From NCBI RefSeq assembly GCF_040702995.1, contig NZ_CP159992.1:4365501-4429500 (forward strand): a stretch of DNA of 64,000 nucleotides, written 5' to 3'. The translations under genes and the position numbers were made by a program. The notes under the pieces were generated by a model. The model was not told the origin of the DNA and did no database searches. It saw nothing but the letters and a program-made list of their open reading frames with translations. Positions 12,626 through 64,000 of the stretch are shown in pieces. Every line of letters starts with the position of its first letter. The stretch's first letter is position 1. Source of the DNA: Paenibacillus sp. AN1007 (GTDB lineage Bacteria > Bacillota > Bacilli > Paenibacillales > Paenibacillaceae).

Positions 12626-12856
12626 AAATACCACCCTATCCTCTATTATTTTTATGAAATCAGAACCACATGACATCAAGAGCAAAAATATTGTTTTTAT
12701 TGGGCATTTAACCCTGCCTCACGTCACACCCTTGACGATTAACGTCTAAGGTACACTACCCACAGTGTGACCGAGTGCCTACCTTGATAAAGGTGTAGTA
12801 GACATGACCTTAAAATGGTAGATGAAGGGTCAACGTGATTCACGGTAAATGAGCTT

Positions 12857-38592: not shown

Positions 38593-39492
38593 CTACTTTT
38601 TTGCCATCTTGGGGTCGAGTGTGTCACGCAGGCCATCGCCCATCAGATTAAAGCCAAGCACAGTCAGCATGATCGAAAGGCCCGGGAAAATTAGTGTCCA
38701 TGGAGCCTTTTGAATAAACTGGCGGGAGTCTGACAGCATTTTGCCCCATTCCGGGTCGGGAGGCTGCGCTCCCATGCCTAGAAATCCAAGTGCGGCTGCC
38801 TCGATAATCGCTGTGCCGATTCCGAGTGTACCCTGCACAATGAGAGGCGTTAGGCTGTTTGGTAAAATGTGCCGAAACAAGATGCGTCCGTTTCCCGCTC
38901 CCAGCGTTCGTGCCGATGTAATAAATTCCTCCTGTCGTAAGCTGAGCACCCGGGACCGCACCAGCCGCCCATATGTAGGAACATTCACAATCGCAATAGC
39001 AAGCAGCGCATTTTGCAAAGATGGGCCTAGTATGGCAACGATGGCAATGGCCAGCAAAATACCCGGAAAGGCCAGCAGAATATCGAACAAACGCGAGATC
39101 ATCATGTCAGCCCATTTTCCATAAAATCCGGCGATTAATCCCAATAGCGCTCCTGCAATAATGGAACCGATAACCGAGAAAAAACCAACCCACAAAGATA
39201 TTCGTGCCCCATGCAGTACACGGGAAAACACATCCCGACCCAGGTCATCCGTTCCAAACCAGTGCTCCGCCGAAGGAGCTTGAAGCCGATCCTGCAGCAC
39301 CTGTTCTTTGTAGTCATATGGCGCGATGTATGGTGCCAGGAAAGCCAGCACGATGAAAAAAACGATAATGATCAAGCCTGCCAGCGCAAGCCGATTTCGC
39401 CGAAACGTTCTCCATGCCTCACGCCAGGGGCCAGATCTATTCATTCGCACCGCGTCAACGCTTTGTCCGGTATTGGTCGACAATTTGGCCAT
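38593..39492 (-). CDS. dipeptide/oligopeptide ABC transporter permease (DppC/OppC type)
   Basis: A 299-residue inner membrane permease with six helices. The first is at about residues 33-55. The N-terminal OppC_N region and a BPD_transp_1 domain with GAGNGRILFRHILPNSLTP, the EAA-loop that contacts the ATPase, are visible. The start is the ATG at 39492 with AAAGGAG upstream. It is the last gene of the operon, after the substrate-binding protein and the other permease. A terminator follows with no ATPase gene. Confidence 0.93.
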   Translation of the reverse strand: MAKLSTNTGQSVDAVRMNRSGPWREAWRTFRRNRLALAGLIIIVFFIVLAFLAPYIAPYDYKEQVLQDRLQAPSAEHWFGTDDLGRDVFSRVLHGARISLWVGFFSVIGSIIAGALLGLIAGFYGKWADMMISRLFDILLAFPGILLAIAIVAILGPSLQNALLAIAIVNVPTYGRLVRSRVLSLRQEEFITSARTLGAGNGRILFRHILPNSLTPLIVQGTLGIGTAIIEAAALGFLGMGAQPPDPEWGKMLSDSRQFIQKAPWTLIFPGLSIMLTVLGFNLMGDGLRDTLDPKMAKK

Positions 39493-39620
39493 ACAGGTTC
39501 TCCTTTGCTGAACTTGAATAAGGTTGAAAGATGAAGAGTTCACTTGATCTAAGAAGTACACAGATGCACAGATTCAAGCTGCTTTCCTGTCTTTCCGTGT
39601 TTCCCCGCAGCTCTGTCTCT

Positions 39621-52174: not shown

Positions 52175-54157
52175 TTATCCATACACCCCCTGGGCACTGG
52201 AAACGATCTGACTGTTCAGTCCATCGGTAATTTTACTAATAATACTGTCTACATCATGACCACTATTTATATCACCTGTCGTCACCTGCACCGTTGGTGT
52301 CAGACTGACGAAGCGCTGGGTCGCCTGCATCTCGGCAAGCTCACGCATCAGTTTCAGATCCTCGCTCGTTACGTCCACGGTGCCGTCCACATCACCGATT
52401 TTGTCCACCTGTCCGATATTGTTAATCTTGTTGAGGTTACTCATATTGTTCATGTTTGTGGGGGCAGGTGCTGTTGGTATGGATGGCATGGGAGGAGTTT
52501 TGGGGTTCGCACTCTTGCCGAAACCGTTCCCGAATCCACCAGGCAAATTTGTGTCTATAGAGTTTGGATTGGGCATAGAAGGTATTTTTGAAAATAACTT
52601 TTTTGATACATCCTGTCCATTATCAAGTACCTTGGGATCGAACTCTCCGTTCATCCGCTTCATATGGAATACATCTTTATCACTCTGAGGCTCCATTAAT
52701 TTAATAGTGTCCATCCATCCCTTGACGTTTTTGCCCACGATGTTGATATCAGATTCGGACAAGACTGCCAAATTCGTGCCAAAAGTATCGTTGATAAAGG
52801 AAGCCACTTTACCAATTGCCCCCATTGCTTTCCCAAGAAACCCCTCGATCCCTACTATAATATTGTAAAATGTCTGCAATGCGAACATTCCTAAATCATA
52901 GAGCAGTTTTTTCCCTGCATAGATCGGGGCATTAAACACATTTGCTATGAAATCTGCGAAGATAGCGAAGCCATTCCACATGTTCGCAATCACTACTCTT
53001 ACCATCTCTCCAAGCAGCATAAATGTACCGATAATTACTCCTAAAATCTCGGTTCCTGATACGCCCATCATGTTCAAGATACCAATGACTGCTGCGATGG
53101 CAGCAATGGCAAGCAGAATCGGCCAATTCAGCAATAACCAAGCAGCAGCGAGACTATAAACTTGGGCAATGACCAAAGCCAGAACTACAATCGCTAACGC
53201 CATCAGGATCGGCTGAATAATATCCCAGTTCTGCTGAATTACAGCAGCGATATACAAGATACCATCGACCAGCATCTTCAGTGCGTTAGCAGCTACCATA
53301 AATGCATTGCTGATCCATTCAATTATGCCCGTAAATTCTCCATTGGCAAAAGCTTCATTCAATCGATCTAATAGAGGTGTCAGAGCCATGAGGGCTGCCT
53401 GTCCAATCTGACCAAGTACTCCATTGAATTGGTTTACAAGTGCATTCCACTTCTGGAGAGGTGAATCCAGCATGGTTTCGAAAGCTTGTTGGGTGTAGCC
53501 TTGCTTTTGCAAAATCACATCTAACTTCTGAATAAACCCGTCCAGATTGGATGCATCAATCGTCTGCTGCAGCCCTGCCCCGTTTAACACTCCTTCTGGA
53601 ATATTAAAAGACTTAGCCAGATCACCATTATCTCCATTCATGGCGGCAACTAAGGCTCCTGCTGCGTCTGACATGTTTTTGCCATCTGGAGATAACATGC
53701 TCATCCGTTTAGCCATATCCCGCAGCTTGTCCATCTGATCTGTATTCTGTGCATATGGGATAAGGGACAGTGCACCTTGTAAACCATCCGTTACATTCTG
53801 TCCACTCTTGAATCCTTCTGCTCGATAACGATTAAATATCGTCTCTCCCTGAGCATCATCGCCTGCTGCAGCCATATACCGATGCTTCAGGTCCTCCTCC
53901 TGTGCTGCCGGGGACAGAACGGCTTGTCCTGCTGACTTGATCATGCCAATCCAGGCTCTGACTCGCTGAGCCCCTTCAGCAAAAGCCGCATTCACTTTAG
54001 CCTGCTCCTGAGATACCTCTCGAAGCAGATTACCTGCAGCAGCAATGCTGTTCAAACGCGCAGAGCTAAACGCAGTACTGATCGCCGCAGGCATCCGTTG
54101 AAATTGCTGAATCATTCGGTTGGACATGACATATAACCTTGCAAACATGGCATACAT
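52175..54157 (-). CDS. tail tape measure protein, module A
   Basis: A 660-residue tape measure protein, setting tail length. The N-terminal half is helical (RVRAWIGMIKSAGQAVLSPA, AAGDDAQGETIFNRYRAEGF). Long hydrophobic stretches lie at about 265-400. The tail is Pro/Asn-rich (SIDTNLPGGFGNGFGKSANP), with a C-terminal LTPTVQVTTGDINS. It follows the chaperone genes as in all tailed phages. The ATG has AAGGAGGGA about 12 bases upstream. At this length the tail would be moderately short for a contractile tail. Confidence 0.9.
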   Translation of the reverse strand: MYAMFARLYVMSNRMIQQFQRMPAAISTAFSSARLNSIAAAGNLLREVSQEQAKVNAAFAEGAQRVRAWIGMIKSAGQAVLSPAAQEEDLKHRYMAAAGDDAQGETIFNRYRAEGFKSGQNVTDGLQGALSLIPYAQNTDQMDKLRDMAKRMSMLSPDGKNMSDAAGALVAAMNGDNGDLAKSFNIPEGVLNGAGLQQTIDASNLDGFIQKLDVILQKQGYTQQAFETMLDSPLQKWNALVNQFNGVLGQIGQAALMALTPLLDRLNEAFANGEFTGIIEWISNAFMVAANALKMLVDGILYIAAVIQQNWDIIQPILMALAIVVLALVIAQVYSLAAAWLLLNWPILLAIAAIAAVIGILNMMGVSGTEILGVIIGTFMLLGEMVRVVIANMWNGFAIFADFIANVFNAPIYAGKKLLYDLGMFALQTFYNIIVGIEGFLGKAMGAIGKVASFINDTFGTNLAVLSESDINIVGKNVKGWMDTIKLMEPQSDKDVFHMKRMNGEFDPKVLDNGQDVSKKLFSKIPSMPNPNSIDTNLPGGFGNGFGKSANPKTPPMPSIPTAPAPTNMNNMSNLNKINNIGQVDKIGDVDGTVDVTSEDLKLMRELAEMQATQRFVSLTPTVQVTTGDINSGHDVDSIISKITDGLNSQIVSSAQGVYG

Positions 54158-54181: not shown

Positions 54182-54364
54182 TTATTTCTTCCGAGTGCGG
54201 CTTCTCGCCCGCTCTTTCTTCTCTTCCTCCACCCGGACCTGGATCATCGCATAGATCGCGGCCCTTTCTCGCATCGAGAAGGCCATTAGCTCATGCGGCA
54301 AAATCTTTAATTCATGGAGAGCGTAATACGCCAGATTGGCTTCGGAATCGCCCTCTTTGATTAG
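54182..54364 (-). CDS. frameshift extension of the tail assembly chaperone (-1 frame)
   Basis: A 60-codon open stretch in the -1 frame relative to the chaperone gene. It starts at the slippery site with LIKEGDSEANLAYYALHELK and ends in the basic tail RARSRTRKK. It lacks its own start codon and ribosome binding site near the 5' end. It ends 25 bases before the tape measure start. With the 140 residues of the upstream gene it makes a 200-residue product, analogous to lambda gpGT. The internal composition is clearly coding. Confidence 0.82.
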   Translation of the reverse strand, partial: LIKEGDSEANLAYYALHELKILPHELMAFSMRERAAIYAMIQVRVEEEKKERARSRTRKK

Positions 54365-54783
54365 TTTTTTACGTCATCCACCAGTTCGTTCATGTCCTGG
54401 TTAAAGCCATTCAATTTCTGAACTTGTTCCCCAAGCGAAGCAAACTCACCAGGCAGCAGCATTTTTCGCAAAAGCGATTCCGCACCCATCACGCCATAGG
54501 AACGCTGCAGTTCGGTATTTTTCAAATCCGGGTACACCACGCTTGCCGTCATCAGACGAGCCATGTAATCATTGGCATCAATGTCAGGTGTGTAAACGCC
54601 GTTCTTGCCTTTGATTTTGCGGGTAGCCGCCTTGCGGCATTCTTGGTTCTCATCCTCGGTCATGCTGCGCAGCTTCCACGCAATCGGCGCACCTTTGTCG
54701 TCTTTGAAACGAGGCGAGACGATAAATTCCTCCGTTGTATCTGCTGCCGCATTTTGTGCAAAAAACATACTCAATCCACTCAT
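54361..54783 (-). CDS. tail assembly chaperone (XkdN-like), module A
   Basis: A 140-residue XkdN-type chaperone that holds the tape measure during tail assembly. It has EEFIVSPRFKDDKGAPIAWK, LRSMTEDENQECRKAATRKI, and LLRKMLLPGEFASLGEQVQK. The stop is reached directly after the heptamer A AAA AAC (54370-54364). The ATG has AAGGAGGA upstream. The short product and a frameshifted longer form are both expected. Confidence 0.9.
   Translation of the reverse strand: MSGLSMFFAQNAAADTTEEFIVSPRFKDDKGAPIAWKLRSMTEDENQECRKAATRKIKGKNGVYTPDIDANDYMARLMTASVVYPDLKNTELQRSYGVMGAESLLRKMLLPGEFASLGEQVQKLNGFNQDMNELVDDVKN
54364..54370 (-). promoter_or_regulatory. programmed -1 frameshift slippery site
   Basis: The minus-strand heptamer A AAA AAC is in the canonical X XXY YYZ phase (GTA AAA AAC TAA). 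It is placed at the last two codons of the chaperone gene and followed by a long open -1 frame. Confidence 0.82.
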
Positions 54784-55013: not shown

Positions 55014-55472
55014 TTACTTCGGCAAATTAAAAGATACAGGCATATCTACATCTTCAAATGTAAAGCTCACTTCTTCCTCCAGCGCCTCGGCCTCGGTATC
55101 CAGGGATGCCATGATCACACTGTCGAGGTTGACACCTTTGAGAGTCACGGTCTGTTTGCCAATGGTGGATGAAGGATCTTCGTTGGTTACTTCAATGTCA
55201 AAGTAGGTATCTACGCCATTTTGCATGTACTCGAGCATCAGTTCGCGGAAACGGGAAGTTGTATAGAAAATTGTCATGGAACCCGAGCCGGACCAGCCTG
55301 TTGCTTTGTGCTGCACGCCGCGGCGGCCCAATGTCTTGACCTCTGCCTTTTGCTTCTCCACCGTTGCTTCCAGCGTCTTCACATAGAACATCTCTTCCGT
55401 TTGTCCATTAATCGTTGCGTATGCGCGGCCCTCCTGGCCGGAGATCGTATCGCTTGCTTTCAGAAATGCCAT
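55014..55472 (-). CDS. phage tail tube protein (XkdM-like), module A
   Basis: A 152-residue tail tube protein of the XkdM/DUF2001 family. It has GQEGRAYATINGQTEEMFYV, KTLGRRGVQHKATGWSGSGS, FRELMLEYMQNGVDTYFDIE and VTLKGVNLDSVIMASLDTEA. It polymerises into the inner tube. It follows the sheath gene with 1 base between. The hairpin terminator after it fits high expression. Confidence 0.92.
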   Translation of the reverse strand: MAFLKASDTISGQEGRAYATINGQTEEMFYVKTLEATVEKQKAEVKTLGRRGVQHKATGWSGSGSMTIFYTTSRFRELMLEYMQNGVDTYFDIEVTNEDPSSTIGKQTVTLKGVNLDSVIMASLDTEAEALEEEVSFTFEDVDMPVSFNLPK

Positions 55473-55473
55473 C

Positions 55474-56788
55474 TTAAACCACCTTCACTTTCATGTATAC
55501 TTTTTCAACGGAATCCACAGGCTGCACCTGCACTTCGATCAAAATACTGTCGGTTTCACTGCCCGGAAGCACGGTAATGTCCGTTTTGGAATCAAAGTTT
55601 TGAATCGCTCCAATATCTTGAAGCTGCTTCAGATATGTGACACATTGGGAACGGAACAGGCTGCGTCCATCCTCGTTGTTGTTTACTTTACCGATGTAAT
55701 AGGATTCGAAAATACGTTTCATGTCGTTGGCGATGCCATCCAAAACACGGACCACACGGTTTTTGGCAAAATGGCGCGCCTTATCCGGTGTCACCGAACG
55801 TAAGGTATTCACATCCTGCTCAACCAGCGCACGGCCTGCTCGCTGTGAATACAAACTCCCCGTTACGCAGCGCCGTCTCTGTTTCGGTATGGGTCAACCG
55901 TCCGTTTACATCCACAGCATCGTCGTACGCCCGGAATGTCAAGGATTCGTTCAGATTAGCTCCTGCGGTTGCACCAGCAGTCCAAGCTACGGCTTGTTTC
56001 GGTGTAAGAGCTGTACCATCTGCAAGCACAACCCCATTTTTGACACTAATGACGCCTTCATGATCCGCAGCCGGGTAATTGGAAAGCACCAGCTGTACCT
56101 TCTTGCCCTCTGTATCACGTAAACGTCTGATATATGCAGTATAAACGGACTTCAGTGATGCATCGTCTGAGATCAGACCAACCGTGTTGAAATCAAGCAC
56201 CTCCAGTTTGCTTAGGAAATCGGCATGCTCTTGGTTCGTAGATGCGCCATCCTCTCCACCTGTTAGCGGAAGTGACGCAGTAGTTGTAAGTGTACCTTCG
56301 CCAGTGAAGGTGATAAATGCATTGGATTGCAGCTGACCGATGGTGGACACCGTCTGTTTGTGCACTTCTTTGCCAGCGAGCAAAGTAGATACATCGAATT
56401 GCTCTGGCTCATTCATATTGGCCGAAATAACAACTGCCAAATCGTTGCCGCGTACACCCCCATGCTGAGCAGTTACTGTAAGAGTGTCCAAAGCGGCCTT
56501 GGCCTTCGTCCCAGCATTAAGTCGATACAAAAGTAAGGTCTGTGCACGTTTTAAAGCTTCACGAACCAGCAGCAGTTGTGGTGCTGTCCAGTCGTAACCG
56601 AGTTTCGTTTGTACATCGTCACCTGCTTGTACCGTCAGGATTGTACCCGCTTGTCCCCAGGACAGAGGAAGTGCCAAAGCTGCGGTTCCCCGCTCTCCAA
56701 CCGTTCCGGGCAGTTTGCCCTCCGATGCAAAATTCATATATACGCCAGGGCGTACCTTATTTTGAGTTGTCCATGTTCCTCCAGCCAT
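55474..56788 (-). pseudogene. tail sheath protein (XkdK-like), frameshifted (module A)
   Basis: The first frame (55820-56788) starts MAGGTWTTQNKVRPGVYMNF, has the sheath core (LSNYPAADHEGVISVKNGVV), and reaches ETALRNGEFVFTAS before a short alien tail and a stop. The expected end, GRALVEQDVNTLRSVTPDKA to VQPVDSVEKVYMKVKVV, lies in the +1 frame from about 55845 to 55474. The break is within 55835-55850, with no homopolymer. Sheath normally needs both halves, so this copy looks inactivated unless the base call is wrong. Combined length (about 440 residues) is normal for XkdK. Confidence 0.85.
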
Positions 56789-57548: not shown

Positions 57549-58853
57549 TTAATAGCCCCAAGCTTCCCAAAAAATCTGATTATATTGCCAATTGTAGTTA
57601 GTAACGCTAAACCCATTACTGCTTATTTTATTTTCTCGAATAGTACCTCCGAATCCAGACATTCCAGTACCATCAGTACTCGTATCTGGGGTGATAAAAC
57701 CGTAAACGCGATGAATAGCTTCATCAAAGAGAAAACAAACAGTGAATCTATCATCGTTATTAGCATAACGACCATACATTTTGACCATTTTAGGTCTGAA
57801 TGCGATCCCACTAACACTAACTCTTCCCTCAGAGGCATAAGTACTATCTCGAGTATACTTTGTAGTTTCAATCATACTGATTTTTTGGGCAAGTACGGCA
57901 TTCGAATCACTCGTCGTTGCCCGTACACCTTTAGCTGTTATCTGATTCGCTATGCTTTGTTTTTCAGATGTAGTCATACGTTCTAAAGCCCCTGTTACAC
58001 CAAAAAATGTTTTGTCTTTAGGCAAATTCCCAGCTATAAGATTAGGCTCACCTTTAATTATAATTGATGTCGTATATCGTCCTTCCGCTTTAATTTGGTC
58101 CACAACCCCTGGTACAACTGTTCCACCAGTTCCACGATCAGGAATAGTACCCGTTAAGCCATTTGCATTTGCATTGCTAAACGTTTTACCAGCTATTACG
58201 TCATCACTTGTTACATCTCCTGTTGCAAGAATTATTGATGATAATTTGGGAATAAGTTTATCCCATGATTCATTTGTGGTTGCTGATACGCCGACGGAGT
58301 TAAGCGCGGCAACCACTTCCGCTTTTCGCTCAACTCCAGCTTGAAAAGCTGCGCTCACCGCCTTCTCCGTCGCCGCCACCGTCTCGGACGTGCCGTCGGT
58401 CTTGTTGGACAGCTGTACTATCCCCGGTTCAGTCAATGATGCAGGCGGGATGGTTGCGTTTTGGAGTTCCTCCTGCAGCTGTTGAATTTCGTCCCTTGTA
58501 GGTACTTTTTTCCACGAACCCCATCCGAAATAGTAGTTGCGTTGAAAAACTTGTAAGTCACTCGGCTCGAAAGTTGTTAGAGTTTGGACGACACCAGCAT
58601 GTTTTTCTATCGTCAAATGAAAAGCTACACCTGTTGGAGAATTAGCTAAAGTTTCTACCGTGGCATTCTCCGGGCAATAATACTCCCCTTCTGTAATATA
58701 ACTATTAAGATCAGAGCCAGCAGATATAAGAATTGCTTCACGTGTCGCCACACCAGCATCAATCTTTTCAAAAATCCTGTTAATACTCTCCCGGGTCACA
58801 TTCTCGTTCCCCAAGGGAAGAGGTAATTTCAATCGATCCGTTTCTTTTGGCAT
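57549..58853 (-). CDS. phage tail fibre protein, module B
   Basis: A 434-residue fibre. The N-terminus has MPKETDRLKLPLPLGNENVT and RIFEKIDAGVAT, the baseplate attachment type. A Phage_fiber_2-like unit (LTEPGIVQLSNKTDGTSETV) lies near 140. Repeats of the tail-fibre type follow: DVIAGKTFSNANANGLTGTI near 220 and NLIAGNLPKDKTFFGVTGAL near 272. The C-terminal 110 residues form the likely receptor tip. The ATG at 58853 has GGAGG upstream and overlaps the stop of the previous gene (TAATG). It is AT-rich compared with the baseplate genes. Confidence 0.85.
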   Translation of the reverse strand: MPKETDRLKLPLPLGNENVTRESINRIFEKIDAGVATREAILISAGSDLNSYITEGEYYCPENATVETLANSPTGVAFHLTIEKHAGVVQTLTTFEPSDLQVFQRNYYFGWGSWKKVPTRDEIQQLQEELQNATIPPASLTEPGIVQLSNKTDGTSETVAATEKAVSAAFQAGVERKAEVVAALNSVGVSATTNESWDKLIPKLSSIILATGDVTSDDVIAGKTFSNANANGLTGTIPDRGTGGTVVPGVVDQIKAEGRYTTSIIIKGEPNLIAGNLPKDKTFFGVTGALERMTTSEKQSIANQITAKGVRATTSDSNAVLAQKISMIETTKYTRDSTYASEGRVSVSGIAFRPKMVKMYGRYANNDDRFTVCFLFDEAIHRVYGFITPDTSTDGTGMSGFGGTIRENKISSNGFSVTNYNWQYNQIFWEAWGY

Positions 58854-59443
58854 TACGCCCACACCTCCAGTTCATTCCACGTCAGGGACGCAGCATCAAG
58901 TTCATCCCAAGTTTTCTGCTTCTTGTCCAGATCGTCCCAGACCAGATAACGGTATTTATATTCCACAGCCATGTGGGCCGGCTTCAGCTCATCAATGGCT
59001 CGTTTCAGATCATCAATATTGGGCGGAATGCCCATGGTATCTACAAAGCTCACCGTAAAGCTCCACGCTTCAGGCTGAAAATTGACATCAACCTTGCCCC
59101 CGGCATACGCTTCAGCCACGTTAGCTACCTGCCTGCCCGAAAACTTGCCTGCCCCGCGCAGCTTCGACTCTACCACAGCACGCCGCTGCTCTACAGGTTT
59201 GAGACGATCCGTCTCTATGCCAAGCTCCTGCTCCCAAAAGTCCAGTCCCCACGTCGCCGTACGGACAAAAAACTGCTCCAGCGTCTCGTCCAGAGCCTGA
59301 TACAGCATATCTATCTCCGCACCTTTGGCCTGCATATCGGCCTGCATGACACGGGAAGTCTCATAGTACCGGGGCAAATAGGAGAACATCTCCCGGCCCT
59401 TCTCACTCGTCAGTCCAGCATGTACAGCAGAAGGAGCATTCAT
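58853..59443 (-). CDS. baseplate protein XkdU/YmfQ-like (DUF2313), module B
   Basis: A 196-residue YmfQ/DUF2313 protein with FSYLPRYYETSRVMQADMQA, ATWGLDFWEQELGIET, EQRRAVVESKLRGAGKFSGR and IPPNIDDLKRAIDELKPAHM. The extra C-terminal DDLDKKQKTWDELDAASLTW is a repeat-like helix. The ATG has AAGGAGGA upstream. It is related to, but clearly different from, the module A copy. Confidence 0.9.
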   Translation of the reverse strand: MNAPSAVHAGLTSEKGREMFSYLPRYYETSRVMQADMQAKGAEIDMLYQALDETLEQFFVRTATWGLDFWEQELGIETDRLKPVEQRRAVVESKLRGAGKFSGRQVANVAEAYAGGKVDVNFQPEAWSFTVSFVDTMGIPPNIDDLKRAIDELKPAHMAVEYKYRYLVWDDLDKKQKTWDELDAASLTWNELEVWA

Positions 59444-59642
59444 GTCCTGTGTCCTCCTTTCTATTCACATTCGAGGAAGAGGTACGCTCACGGGACTGCT
59501 GCGCCCGGAAATAACTTAATCCTGGTCCCAAATCTGCCTCGGCTCCGTCAAGCTTCTCCACCAAGGAATTCAGGACATTCACCAATGCCTGTCCATCCAT
59601 CTTGTCGACTGACCCCCTCACCTCTACCCCCACACTACTCAT
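59403..59642 (-). CDS. small hypothetical protein between baseplate genes (79 aa)
   Basis: A 79-codon frame starting MSSVGVEVRGSVDKMDGQAL, then VNVLNSLVEKLDGAEADLGP. The start overlaps the baseplate J stop. The helix-forming first 55 codons look coding; the end overlaps the next gene by 41 bases. No good ribosome binding site. There is no equivalent in module A. It may be a real small protein of this module. Confidence 0.42.
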   Translation of the reverse strand: MSSVGVEVRGSVDKMDGQALVNVLNSLVEKLDGAEADLGPGLSYFRAQQSRERTSSSNVNRKEDTGHECSFCCTCWTDE

Positions 59643-60774
59643 AGACATCCACCGTCCCCAGCACAGCCACCTGGCTGGCGGTCATCTCGATATTTTGGTC
59701 GCTGACATCGTTCACAGTCAGCTCCGAATAGTCGATAATCGGCGGAATGTCGAGTAGGATTGCGGCGATGCGGGTGTACCGCACGAGAGGGTCGGCAAAA
59801 GCAAGCTGCTTCAAATACGCGGTCACTCCGCGTTCGATTAATGCCCGGACATCTGCCAGCGCCGCATCACTTGCCAGCGTAAGCTTCACCTGAATGTTCA
59901 TCGGCACTTCCTCTGCCGGCATCACCGTCACGACAGGTCCAGCCGGGGCAGCACCTTCGCCCTGTCCATCCTGCGTCGGGTCAACATATTTTTGCACTGC
60001 AGCCACCAGATCTGAGCCTGCAGCACGCTTGTCCGTGTCCAGCAGATACAGTCCAACCGTACCCGGCCCCTGCCACAGCGGGATCACCCGCGCTGCCCCG
60101 ACGCCCGGCACTTCACTGGCCCACTGCACATACTGTGCCTTGTTGCCGCTTGTTCCCTGGTTGCGGACTTTGGCATAAAAGCGCTCCAGCAGCGCGGTAT
60201 CTGCCTCGATGTCCGCACCGCCCTTAATCACATCTGTGTTCACCACAGATGTTACGCCGCTTACCGGTGTAGACAGCACGGTTACGGTGCCTGCGGGTAC
60301 ATTGCTTTCTTTTCCGGCAGCGAGTGCTCTTATGCCTACAGTCCCGACACCATCCTCACCAAGCTCCACACGGCTCACGGTTTCATATTCCAGCGATGCT
60401 TCACCAGACACTTCGTCCGCAAGTGTAGCCACCACCGTTCCTGCTGGCACCACTTTACCCGGCTCACCCGTAAATTTCACTGTGCCCTGTGCTGCGACCG
60501 CCGCCCGGCGTGTAATGCCATGTTCCCCCGCCCGCAAGTCCAGCTCCTCCGAACGAAAATTCGGATCACGGCTTGCTGCCGTGCTGGCAAATCCACGCCG
60601 CAGCAGCTCCTGCGCCCACAATGCTGCTTCGGACAGCATAAAGGCTGCCGGAGCCTCTGCATCCCACAAAAACGAACCTTCCGACTTATCCAGATCCGCG
60701 GGTAGACGATCCAGCATACGCTGCATGATCTGTTCCTCCGTCTGGTCCTCCAAATAACGCGGAATCTCAGCCAT
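59635..60774 (-). CDS. baseplate J-like protein (XkdT), module B
   Basis: A 379-residue baseplate wedge protein. It has YLEDQTEEQIMQRMLDRLPA, EGSFLWDAEAPAAFMLSEAA, and the shared core ADPLVRYTRIAAILLDIPPI with an IDYSELTVNDV end. AGGTGA lies upstream. Module A's homologue (48728-49786) shares the same architecture but has a different middle domain. Confidence 0.92.
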   Translation of the reverse strand: MAEIPRYLEDQTEEQIMQRMLDRLPADLDKSEGSFLWDAEAPAAFMLSEAALWAQELLRRGFASTAASRDPNFRSEELDLRAGEHGITRRAAVAAQGTVKFTGEPGKVVPAGTVVATLADEVSGEASLEYETVSRVELGEDGVGTVGIRALAAGKESNVPAGTVTVLSTPVSGVTSVVNTDVIKGGADIEADTALLERFYAKVRNQGTSGNKAQYVQWASEVPGVGAARVIPLWQGPGTVGLYLLDTDKRAAGSDLVAAVQKYVDPTQDGQGEGAAPAGPVVTVMPAEEVPMNIQVKLTLASDAALADVRALIERGVTAYLKQLAFADPLVRYTRIAAILLDIPPIIDYSELTVNDVSDQNIEMTASQVAVLGTVDVYE

Positions 60775-60778
60775 CCCG

Positions 60779-61234
60779 TCAGATCACCTCACTTTCCAGA
60801 ATAAACGTCTCTTCCTGCACACTCATCACCCGGCACGAAAACCGGCACTGCTCCCGGTCCCAGTCAAAGGCAAACTGGTCCACCGCATCCGTACGCGGAT
60901 CCGCGAGGAGCGTTTCCGTCACCATCCGGGCAATCTCACTTTCCATCACACCGCGGCTGTCCCCCTGGCCCACCAGATCCTCCAGTTCCGAGCCATAGTC
61001 TCGGGAGTAGATCACATGTCTGTAACGCGGGGTTTTCACCGCCTTGATGCACCACTGGACCCACGCCTCATGTGCGTCTGCCGCAGCCACTTTGCCGCTT
61101 GGGGTCAGCACAAAATCACCGGCATCATAGTCGTAGCGCCAGCTCCGTCCAAAACGTACCTCCTCCGAAGCCGCACCCGACAAGTCCTCTTCATCTCCCC
61201 AGACCATACCCGTTTCCGGAAATAAACTAGGCAT
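60779..61234 (-). CDS. XkdS-like baseplate protein (DUF2634), module B
   Basis: A 151-residue protein with MPSLFPETGMVWGDEEDLSG, WVQWCIKAVKTPRYRHVIYS, RDYGSELEDLVGQGDSRGVM. Homologous to 49779-50192. I chose the ATG at 61234 with AAGGTGG about 9 bases upstream; a GTG at 61240 is close to it. Confidence 0.88.
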   Translation of the reverse strand: MPSLFPETGMVWGDEEDLSGAASEEVRFGRSWRYDYDAGDFVLTPSGKVAAADAHEAWVQWCIKAVKTPRYRHVIYSRDYGSELEDLVGQGDSRGVMESEIARMVTETLLADPRTDAVDQFAFDWDREQCRFSCRVMSVQEETFILESEVI

Positions 61235-61637
61235 GGGCACTCACCACCTTACACAGCACCACAATATCGTTACCGCCATTTACCCGCATCGCCAGCACAC
61301 GGTCCCCGGCCATCAGGCCTTTTCCCAAAGACCAAACCGCTTCTTCCACTTCCCCTTTTTGCAAAAGAAACCGTCCCGTGCTTGTCGTACCGCCGTTTGC
61401 CACGTCAGATATGCCGGAGATGGCGCCAGCCAGCTCGCGCTCCGGCAAATATAATGTCCCAGGCAGCTCGGCCACGAGATAATCCTGCACTTCGTGCTTG
61501 AAATCGTCCAGCTTCACACCGGACGCTGTCATCGTACCCAGCACCGCACCAAGGCCGCTCACCGCCTGGCGGGAATGGTTACTCATCGCTCCCCGCATCA
61601 CATCGGCAAAGTGCCCATACGGATCTTCTTTACTCAA
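61227..61637 (-). CDS. XkdR-like protein (DUF2577), module B
   Basis: A 136-residue DUF2577-type protein. It has DVMRGAMSNHSRQAVSGLGA, VLGTMTASGVKLDDFKHEVQ, and GLMAGDRVLAMRVNGGNDIV. The TTG at 61637 has GGAGGG upstream and overlaps XkdQ's stop. Longer than the 85-residue module A protein. Confidence 0.85.
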   Translation of the reverse strand: MSKEDPYGHFADVMRGAMSNHSRQAVSGLGAVLGTMTASGVKLDDFKHEVQDYLVAELPGTLYLPERELAGAISGISDVANGGTTSTGRFLLQKGEVEEAVWSLGKGLMAGDRVLAMRVNGGNDIVVLCKVVSAHA

Positions 61638-62619
61638 GGTAAACCCTCCTTTTTACCAGCTCCGCCGTACCGAGCTCCAGCGTCATTGTGCCCGGCCCAG
61701 CCGACAGATCACGGCTGACCGACATGACGATCAGCTTCAACCCTTTGAGCGTGACCGCGTCTCCGGCGCGAATGGTATTGATATCCGGGACCGAAACCGT
61801 AAATGTCTCCTGGATACCCGTCAGCTTGCTTTTTGCCAGCTTTTTGGCGGCGCCGGTTGTTTTCACCTGATCGTCCTCGATCAGTTTTTGCAGCGTACCC
61901 AGCTGTTCTGTATCCCCCTGCTCAATCGCCAGCACTTTCGAAGGCACCTCTTTGCCACTACCGCCAGATTCAGACGCAGCCATCACCTTTACTTTGGTGA
62001 CTGCCCCCTCCAGCGTACGCAGCTGCGTCAGATCGATCAGCCGATCCAAAGCATGCACCTTGGTATTGCTCCCTACCTTGAACAGCTGCAGCCCGCCGGG
62101 CGTCATCCGCGGATGGTACATCTCTCCCCCGGATTTAGCGGTTTCTTTGAGGTCGGCGAACATCATTGCAAAAATCGTCTGCGACCGGTACACCGCCTTG
62201 CCCAGCTTGGTCTTGATTTCCGGCATTGCAGCCAGAGGAATTTTCCATTCCTTGGCGTACGATTTAAGCCGCTGCACAGCGGTCTGATCCTTGGGAAAGA
62301 GGAATTCGTCCTCTGATTTTTCGAGATAAATCATCCGGTCGTAGACCGTGAGGGACAAGCGTTTTGTGCCGCTGTTTGAGCTTTCCATTTCCCAGATAAC
62401 TGCCGGATGCAGCAGATGTACCATTGATTTCTCGCCAAAAGGAACCCCGCTGATCCGTACCGGCATTCCCGGTGAAATCGCAGGCAGCCCGGAAGAAGCC
62501 GACACTGCCAGCCGAATGTTCGCCTGGTAGGCGATCTGATCCAGCGAATCCTTGAGTGTGATCGTCTCGACCAGGTTGGTGACATCATGCTTGTCATCGA
62601 CAATGACTTTGTAGGTCAT
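61630..62619 (-). CDS. XkdQ-like phage hub protein, module B
   Basis: A 329-residue intact hub protein (late control/YqbQ type). It has YKVIVDDKHDVTNLVETITL, SLTVYDRMIYLEKSEDEFLF, KSYAKEWKIPLAAMPEIKTK, and FTVSVPDINTIRAGDAVTLK. It lies between XkdP and XkdR with 4-base overlaps. Module A's XkdQ (50453-51462) is a distant homologue with a frameshift. Confidence 0.88.
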   Translation of the reverse strand: MTYKVIVDDKHDVTNLVETITLKDSLDQIAYQANIRLAVSASSGLPAISPGMPVRISGVPFGEKSMVHLLHPAVIWEMESSNSGTKRLSLTVYDRMIYLEKSEDEFLFPKDQTAVQRLKSYAKEWKIPLAAMPEIKTKLGKAVYRSQTIFAMMFADLKETAKSGGEMYHPRMTPGGLQLFKVGSNTKVHALDRLIDLTQLRTLEGAVTKVKVMAASESGGSGKEVPSKVLAIEQGDTEQLGTLQKLIEDDQVKTTGAAKKLAKSKLTGIQETFTVSVPDINTIRAGDAVTLKGLKLIVMSVSRDLSAGPGTMTLELGTAELVKRRVYLE

Positions 62620-63281
62620 GGCATCACCAGCTTTTGCCCCGGCTTGATCCGGTTCGGATCACTGCCGATCGTTTTGGCATTGAGCTTGTAAATCTCGTTC
62701 CATTTGGAACTGTTCCCCAGCTCAAGCTTCGCTATTTTTGACAGAGAATCCCCGGCTTTGACGGTATAGGTCCTGCTCGTCTTTTTCAGATCTGTTCGTG
62801 AACTAGACTTACTTGCGGCAGCCCCCGAACCCACCTTCTCCACTTTGGAATCCCGCCAGGTTCGCAGGGTCAGGTCAAAATAAATATCTCCCGTCTCTCC
62901 GCCGCGGAAGCTCGAATTAAGCGAAATCAGAAACACCGGCACATTCACTCCGGTCCCGGAAATGATGAAACGCAGCGGCTTTTTGGAGATCAGGAACGTA
63001 TTCAGCACATTCATCGCCACGCGCGGATCGGGAATGTCCGTCACCGTACAATAGGACTCGTCGTACTCTTTGGGAAAAAAAGAAGAGAAGGTGATCTCCT
63101 TCACCTTCTCCCCCTGCGCAAAATCAAATTCGCCATGCTCCAGCATCTGGATTGTTTCGTACCCCTTGGATCTGGAGATGTTGACCTCCTCCGGGTTGAC
63201 CGGAAATTGAAACGAAGTGCTGCCGTCCTTCAACGTGAACGACATTTGGTTAGGTCCAACTTCATCTTTAAGTACAGACAT
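62616..63281 (-). CDS. LysM domain tail protein (XkdP-like), module B
   Basis: A 221-residue protein with an XkdP-type N-terminal domain (SFTLKDGSTSFQFPVNPEEV, EGDFAQGEKV-like EHGEFDFAQGEKVKEITFSS). A Ser/Lys-rich linker and a C-terminal LysM follow (TYTVKAGDSLSKIAKLELGN, RIKPGQKLVMP). The ATG has AAAGGAGG upstream. It overlaps XkdQ by 4 bases. It corresponds to 51476-52174 in module A. Confidence 0.9.
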   Translation of the reverse strand: MSVLKDEVGPNQMSFTLKDGSTSFQFPVNPEEVNISRSKGYETIQMLEHGEFDFAQGEKVKEITFSSFFPKEYDESYCTVTDIPDPRVAMNVLNTFLISKKPLRFIISGTGVNVPVFLISLNSSFRGGETGDIYFDLTLRTWRDSKVEKVGSGAAASKSSSRTDLKKTSRTYTVKAGDSLSKIAKLELGNSSKWNEIYKLNAKTIGSDPNRIKPGQKLVMP

Positions 63282-63301
63282 ATCTGCGGCCTCCTTTCTG
63301 C

Positions 63302-64000
63302 TTAGGCCATAATCGTTTTGCGATTTTGCATCGCGCGGCGCAGCTCGTTAGTAATCCGCTGTCCCACCTGTTGACTTACAATATCGTAATCTATAGCGTT
63401 CTCGCGAACTGTCACTTGTACCGTTCCCGGCGCAATATGGACATCGATCTGGTTCGTTGTTTCGGTTTTGAAATCCTTGAGGTAACCCGCCAGACTGCCC
63501 ATCTGCTCTTCGGAAATGTGAACCGTCATCGGGGAAGCTTTACTATTCGATTGAGCGGTGTTATGAACGGCTATGGCTTGGGACTGCATCATACTGGCGC
63601 CCATCAAACCCGCGGAGGTTGATGTACCCAACTGATTATTCATGTAAGCTTCAGGACCAGTGATTGATAAAGCTGCCGGCCTGTATGGCGGCGGCATCTG
63701 CGGTGCTGCCGGCACGGAAGGCGATGAGGATGCTGCTGCAGGCGGAGCGGTCTGTTCTTCCTTTTTCGAACCGAAACCGAAGAAATTCGAGATGCCTTCT
63801 GTCAGCCCTTTTGTTTTCTCAGAAAAATAATCCGCTACTCCAGTTATTGCTTTACCTGCTCCCTCAGACGCTTTGGAAAAGAAGTTTCCGATATTCTGTA
63901 CTTTACTGCCAATCCAGCCGCCTGCTTCACTTCCCAACCAGCCTCCAACTGCACCCCCTACGTATGTTCCAATCACTGGTGAGATCAGCGTTCCCAGCGC
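63302..64000 (-). CDS. tail tape measure protein, C-terminal part (module B, partial)
   Basis: An open frame of 232 codons that runs off the right edge of the window. It is glycine-rich with amphipathic helices (GGAVGGWLGSEAGGWIGSKV, GNFFSKASEGAGKAITGVAD), has a Pro-rich linker, and a C-terminal DIVSQQVGQRITNELRRAMQ. It sits before XkdP as tape measures do in this family. The full start is not visible. Confidence 0.85.
   Translation of the reverse strand, partial: ALGTLISPVIGTYVGGAVGGWLGSEAGGWIGSKVQNIGNFFSKASEGAGKAITGVADYFSEKTKGLTEGISNFFGFGSKKEEQTAPPAAASSSPSVPAAPQMPPPYRPAALSITGPEAYMNNQLGTSTSAGLMGASMMQSQAIAVHNTAQSNSKASPMTVHISEEQMGSLAGYLKDFKTETTNQIDVHIAPGTVQVTVRENAIDYDIVSQQVGQRITNELRRAMQNRKTIMA

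Follow-up and report, generated by a model that had tools for sequence, protein, structure and literature searches.

A putative programmed -1 ribosomal frameshift in the XkdN-type tail assembly chaperone gene of a Paenibacillus tail cluster

Introduction

Programmed -1 frameshifting of tail assembly chaperone genes and the roles of the lambda G and GT products are established (PMC5009743), and a survey of frameshift clusters measured 6-7% frameshifting in two genes from an HK97-like tail chaperone cluster (PMC3711429). A paper on a frameshift predictor (PMC10885494) counts 2,397 joined chaperone genes among the annotations of 3,679 phage genomes and cites an examination of 28 phages by Xu et al. 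The PBSX-like tailocins of Bacillales, e.g., of Brevibacillus laterosporus, possess contractile tail genes that include an XkdN protein, and frameshifting is not mentioned in the text of the paper that describes them (PMC9406221). No published account of frameshifting in XkdN, or in the XkdN of PBSX, was found in the literature searched, most subscription papers lying outside this search. Here, we analyze an XkdN-like tail assembly chaperone gene that carries a putative programmed -1 frameshift signal at its 3' end. The gene lies in a stretch of 64,000 nucleotides (nt) of the 6.64 Mb genome of Paenibacillus sp. AN1007 (contig NZ_CP159992.1, positions 4,365,501 to 4,429,500), hereafter the window.

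Results

The chaperone gene and its extension span positions 54182-54783, exactly as given in a previous sequence-only reading of the window, which had not stated that they lie on the minus strand. The proposed identity as a tail assembly chaperone is well founded. The 0-frame protein matches PF08890 over its full length (E 2.1e-41; 141.4 bits against a cut-off of 27), which places it in this family, and also matches phrog_389 (E 2.9e-47) and the B. subtilis YqbN structure 3klu (E 2e-11). A tail tube gene upstream (PF09393) and a tape measure gene downstream (phrog_1068) complete the gene order known from G/GT-type chaperones. On its coding strand the chaperone open reading frame (ORF) ends GAC GTA AAA AAC TAA, in which A AAA AAC (54370-54364) conforms to the X XXY YYZ pattern of slippery heptamers and lies in the phase of the chaperone frame. 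The -1 frame, entered at the C at 54364, has 60 open codons before a stop at 54184-54182. The extension reads LIKEGDSEANLAYYALHELK...RTRKK, and its fusion to the 0-frame product has a computed length of 200 aa. Gene end, open frame, and fusion length are thus as the sequence-only reading had described them.

The 65 predicted genes of the window (19,506 codons) contain 76 in-phase X XXY YYZ heptamers, two of which are A AAA AAC. Heptamers of any kind are found within 30 nt of a stop in two genes, namely A AAA AAC in the chaperone gene and A AAA AAG in an oligopeptide-permease gene; by simple arithmetic, the window counts predict about 0.07 occurrences of A AAA AAC this close to any of the 65 stops. 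The permease gene (38593-39561, minus strand) has its in-phase A AAA AAG 7 nt before the stop, with 44 open codons in the -1 frame, and this gene end is probably due to chance.

Similarity to the 0-frame protein or to its Pfam model was the criterion for gathering relatives, and the collection was therefore not selected for the slippery site. It comprised 61 loci from genome contigs, 30 from same-genus genomes, 11 from phage records, 20 further Paenibacillus copies, 29 new loci from across the phylum, and 80 viral contigs. Profile matches in all sets except the viral contigs amounted to 154 PF08890-like ORFs, 150 of which have A AAA AAC in phase and at most 60 nt from the stop. The viral contigs, mostly close relatives (75-99% identical), carry A AAA AAC directly before the stop in 80 of 80 cases, with 56-60 open codons behind it. 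Homologues without slippery site and open extension, which the sequence-only reading had named as a reason to abandon frameshifting, were thereby looked for, and the outcome did not refute frameshifting. Because the genome-contig and same-genus loci overlap, the 150 heptamer-bearing ORFs represent 132 distinct sequences. Loci L001/L091/L095 and L002/L094 are from the window genome itself, and the fragment L061 was missed by the profile, yet has the heptamer.

Four ORFs (L062, L099, L125, and L145) lack A AAA AAC, of which L125 is a broken gene and L062 is considered in the Discussion. In the record of phage EJ-1 (L099, 1498-2094), one additional base ahead of the site places chaperone and extension in a single frame of 198 aa, which may be a natural fusion or a sequencing error. 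L145 encodes A AAA AAG in phase before a conserved extension, with the 0-frame stop located further downstream, a variant that speaks for programmed frameshifting.

The codon preceding AAA AAC in the 132 distinct sequences is GTA (78), GCA (36), CTA (12), ATA (3), ACA (2), or TTA (1). The residue at this position varies among five amino acids, and the third base is A in 132 of 132 sequences; elsewhere in the same ORFs, A-ending codons make up 25% of valine and 23% of alanine codons, and CTA makes up 4% of leucine codons. The stop follows the heptamer directly in 127 of the 132 (94 TAA, 32 TGA, one TAG). All 72 sequences of a non-redundant set have a run of exactly six A, with T or C before and C after it.

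Selection on the extension was analyzed in 47 sequences, after removal of L048 and thinning of sequences more than 95% identical. The ratio of non-synonymous to synonymous changes (pN/pS) over the extension is 0.26 in the -1 frame, compared to 1.54 and 1.89 in the two alternative frames. Within the -1 frame, codons 1-20 have a value of 0.183 and codons 21-52 one of 0.296; the other frames give values of 1.3-2.0. No -1 stop occurs over the 52 codons, compared to averages of 3.9 stops in the 0 frame and 3.3 in the +1 frame. As judged from these patterns, purifying selection acts on the extension in the -1 frame only. Start codons (ATG, GTG, or TTG) before codon 19 of this frame are limited to an ATG at codon 2 in two of the 47 sequences. 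Since codons 1-20 are the most constrained and nearly free of starts, the heptamer or its immediate vicinity must be where ribosomes enter the frame, and this speaks against internal initiation.

The extension pattern is recognizable across 68 diverse sequences. An AlphaFold2 model (18 rows) predicts three helices with a mean predicted local distance difference test score (pLDDT) of 87, consistent with the helical, charged extension anticipated from the sequence. Matches of the extension (54185-54364) are to phrog_10943, phrog_20560, and phrog_33439, each of unknown function, and these families may represent chaperone frameshift extensions. A search of solved structures with the extension gave no match. 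The peptide EGDSEANLAYYALHELK lies inside the extension. As the predicted tryptic fragment across the junction is only NLIK, a trypsin junction peptide is not useful and another protease is needed.

RNAalifold predicted one structure only in the 47-sequence alignment, a stem-loop that starts 8 nt past the heptamer. In a slightly fuller version of the stem, 91.5% of 658 alignment cells are paired, compared to 37-58% in all slid registers, and 20 cells carry double changes (shuffled mean 7.3; none of 500 shuffles as high). The covariation is narrow, as 19 of these 20 cells derive from columns 40 and 52, one pair of third codon positions. Local folding energy has a sharp dip at the place of the stem-loop in the 47 close relatives and in 84 others, and the stem sequences differ among relatives that reach the same dip. 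Stability relative to synonymous recodings was analyzed in 73 non-redundant sequences (sequences more than 85% identical and short extensions thinned, L048 kept; without L048, this is the set of 72 used for spacer and A-run counts). The 60 nt downstream fold more stably than their recodings (mean z -2.50, Wilcoxon p 8e-13), compared to a z of -0.17 in a control window further downstream. Spacers of 7-8 nt are the most frequent (32 of 72 sequences). Downstream stimulatory RNA structures are a common though not universal element of G/GT-type frameshifts, and the folding predictions point to such a structure here.

Table 1. Features of the chaperone locus and its surroundings (positions in the window)
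Feature	Position	Strand	Basis
XkdN-like tail assembly chaperone, 0-frame product (gpG-like), 140 aa	54361..54783	-	PF08890, phrog_389, 3klu matches
Slippery heptamer A AAA AAC, in phase with chaperone frame	54364..54370	-	Sequence read directly
0-frame stop TAA, abuts heptamer	54361..54363	-	Sequence read directly
-1 frame extension (T-like domain), 60 codons and stop, putative entry via frameshift	54182..54364	-	Open frame, pN/pS, helical model
Spacer from heptamer to stem-loop, 8 nt, takes in 0-frame stop	54356..54363	-	Alignment A1 columns 18-25
Predicted stimulatory stem-loop, outer stem GAGGGCG/CGCUCUC and inner stem	54317..54355	-	RNAalifold consensus, covariation, recoding z
Tape measure protein, 660 aa, directly downstream of chaperone	52175..54157	-	phrog_1068 E 2e-82
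Tail tube protein (DUF2001, XkdM-like), upstream of chaperone	55014..55472	-	PF09393 E 2e-49
Contractile sheath gene, two frames (56788-55820, 55854-55474)	55474..56788	-	PF04984 and related models
Second co-directional tail module (fibre, baseplate, sheath initiator, LysM, tape measure)	57549..64000	-	Domain/profile matches

The genes around the chaperone form a contractile tail cluster that further encodes baseplate J, sheath initiator, Gp48-like, YQBQ-like, and LysM proteins, tail fibres, a holin, and a GH25 lysozyme. A second, complete contractile tail module lies next to the first, runs past the window end (locus L094, 1-6387), and has a separate set of sheath, tube, and tape measure genes and a PF08890 chaperone of its own. 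The second chaperone (G000:C1:4430769-4431149), situated just beyond the window end, is about 30% identical to the first, ends AAAAAAC TGA, and has an extension of 53 codons. The cluster is flanked by ordinary chromosomal genes, with oligopeptide transport and HSP90 on one side and DUF4127, glyoxalase, and FMN reductase on the other. No head or packaging genes were found among the scanned ORFs, the scan covering part of the ORFs. Judged by its gene content, the carrier would most naturally be read as a tailocin-like cluster that is tail-only, and not as a phage. PF08890 matches occur in 69 of 75 same-genus genomes, and 28 of the 75 carry a pair of copies spaced by about 10.5-13 kb on a single contig, the second copy being broken in G005.

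The sheath gene of the first module is split near 55,820-55,854 (minus strand). All relatives listed with this region read through it in one frame, and a second programmed frameshift, considered for the split, was rejected on this ground. Comparison with these relatives identifies it as a private lesion or an assembly error.

An Rfam scan of the window gave no match at the frameshift site. Its sole match was an epsC RNA (RF01735) at 12701-12810 on the minus strand, with 100 bits.

Discussion

We propose that the 3' end of the chaperone gene is very probably a programmed -1 ribosomal frameshift cassette. This is what the sequence-only reading had suggested, and it is supported by slippery site, open extension, and stem-loop, which comparison of the relatives indicates to be conserved and under selection. 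Most ribosomes would read the 0 frame and terminate at the TAA after A AAA AAC, yielding the chaperone of 140 aa. In a minority of ribosomes, both tRNAs would slip one base back on A AAA AAC, helped by the stem-loop 8 nt downstream. Whatever the efficiency of such slippage, these ribosomes would read 60 further codons and produce a fusion of 200 aa with a helical, basic tail. By analogy to lambda gpG/gpGT, the short form might serve to coat the tape measure protein, and recruitment of the tail tube protein might fall to the rare long form, such that the ratio of short to long form would govern tube assembly.

Several observations weigh against this proposal. The locus L062 (around 3411), labelled as an archaeal metagenome-assembled genome, has kept the extension and lacks a perfect heptamer; it may reflect slippage at another site, an error, or phage DNA that was misbinned. 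In L048 the heptamer is present and the extension is frame-broken. The excess stability of the hairpin is not clear in 14 of the 73 sequences, including the Lactobacillus phages KC5a and AQ113, and the hairpin of the window itself is moderate (z -1.24 in the family test and -1.87 in a separate test). An upstream Shine-Dalgarno-like stimulator was sought by duplex energy with the 16S rRNA tail, and none of the segments just upstream in the 47 close relatives reaches -5 kcal/mol (background 19%). Among the other 85 sequences 32% do, against a background of 18%, and such a stimulator is unsupported as a general element. Finally, as the sheath of the first module is broken, this module may not build particles in strain AN1007.

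Other explanations for the gene end have to account for the same conservation. The permease gene of the same window also closes with a heptamer and an open -1 frame (7 nt before the stop and 44 codons, respectively), which illustrates that A-rich gene ends with an accidentally open frame can arise. A chance origin of the chaperone signal is nevertheless untenable because the heptamer is conserved across relatives. Near-universal conservation in divergent relatives together with purifying selection confined to the -1 frame refutes it, and we assign it a negligible probability. The extension could also be made as a separate small protein, by internal initiation or by reinitiation after the chaperone stop. 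Internal ATGs are present in the -1 frame at codon 27 in 41 of 47 and at codon 40 in 46 of 47 sequences, and a short ORF is annotated inside the extension in three phage records (PBP180 ORF21, Osiris gp024, and Abouo gp18). Yet codons 1-20, with a pN/pS of 0.18, are the most constrained part of the extension and almost devoid of start codons, and reinitiation leaves the fixed wobble A, the heptamer, and the hairpin unexplained, which makes a separate protein very improbable.

Transcriptional slippage would reach the same frame by another route. Addition of one A by RNA polymerase in the run of six would open the extension and result in a fusion junction VKKL instead of VKNL. Efficient transcriptional slippage, however, usually occurs on runs longer than A6, and the run is exactly A6 in each of the 72 non-redundant sequences. 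Slippage of the polymerase requires neither a codon phase nor a stem-loop spaced by 7-8 nt, yet both are conserved, and we therefore consider this explanation highly unlikely.

More tentatively, at a confidence that falls a little short of even, we propose that the XkdN-family cassette as a whole, i.e., A AAA AAC, immediate stop, spacer of 7-8 nt, stem-loop, and helical extension of about 50-65 codons, could be one ancient signal that is near letter-perfect across the phylum and was retained in domesticated tail-only clusters. Many Paenibacillus genomes would then harbor two cassettes about 11 kb apart that separately set the chaperone ratio of two tail machines. If true, the almost exclusive use of A AAA AAC over other slippery heptamers would suggest selection for a specific frameshift rate. 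With the heptamer kept almost without exception, it should also be possible to measure in a non-infectious tail particle how frameshift rate affects tail length or yield.

None of the 11 phage records joins the two frames. Three have a short in-frame ORF in the extension, seven have nothing annotated there, and EJ-1 has one long frame. A frameshift would explain why the second half of the chaperone is missing or split off in ten of these 11 annotations, and it would assign a function to the three as yet uncharacterized PHROG families matched by the extension. It might further be guessed that xkzB of B. subtilis 168 is a misannotated extension, from the gene order presented in PMC9406221.

The B. 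subtilis PBSX/skin protein XkdN (YqbN) is of the same family as the window chaperone, and PF08890 matches the B. subtilis control genome. In the PBSX-like phage PBP180, GCAAAAAACTAA is followed by an extension of 60 codons, as in the window chaperone. Clostridioides phage phiC2 has a homologous chaperone and extension with A AAA AAC and 65 extension codons, and the XkdN-like protein of Streptococcus phage EJ-1 is likewise homologous in both parts but forms one 198-aa frame in the record. Compared to PBSX-like tailocins, the window cluster is distinguished by two tail modules side by side.

Lambda arranges its genes in the order tube, chaperone, and tape measure, and the window cluster resembles the gpG/gpGT system in having the same order. 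The slippery heptamer of lambda is G GGA AAG, whereas the window chaperone belongs to a different protein family (PF08890) and uses A AAA AAC. The locus further differs from lambda in its contractile, apparently head-less tail cluster, the clear downstream stem-loop, and a 0-frame stop that abuts the heptamer. The mechanism is thus known from lambda G/GT; as no account of XkdN frameshifting was found in the literature searched and none of the 11 phage records joins the frames, the XkdN-type signal is new and generally unannotated, and it offers a compact, easily tested signal in relatives of B. subtilis.
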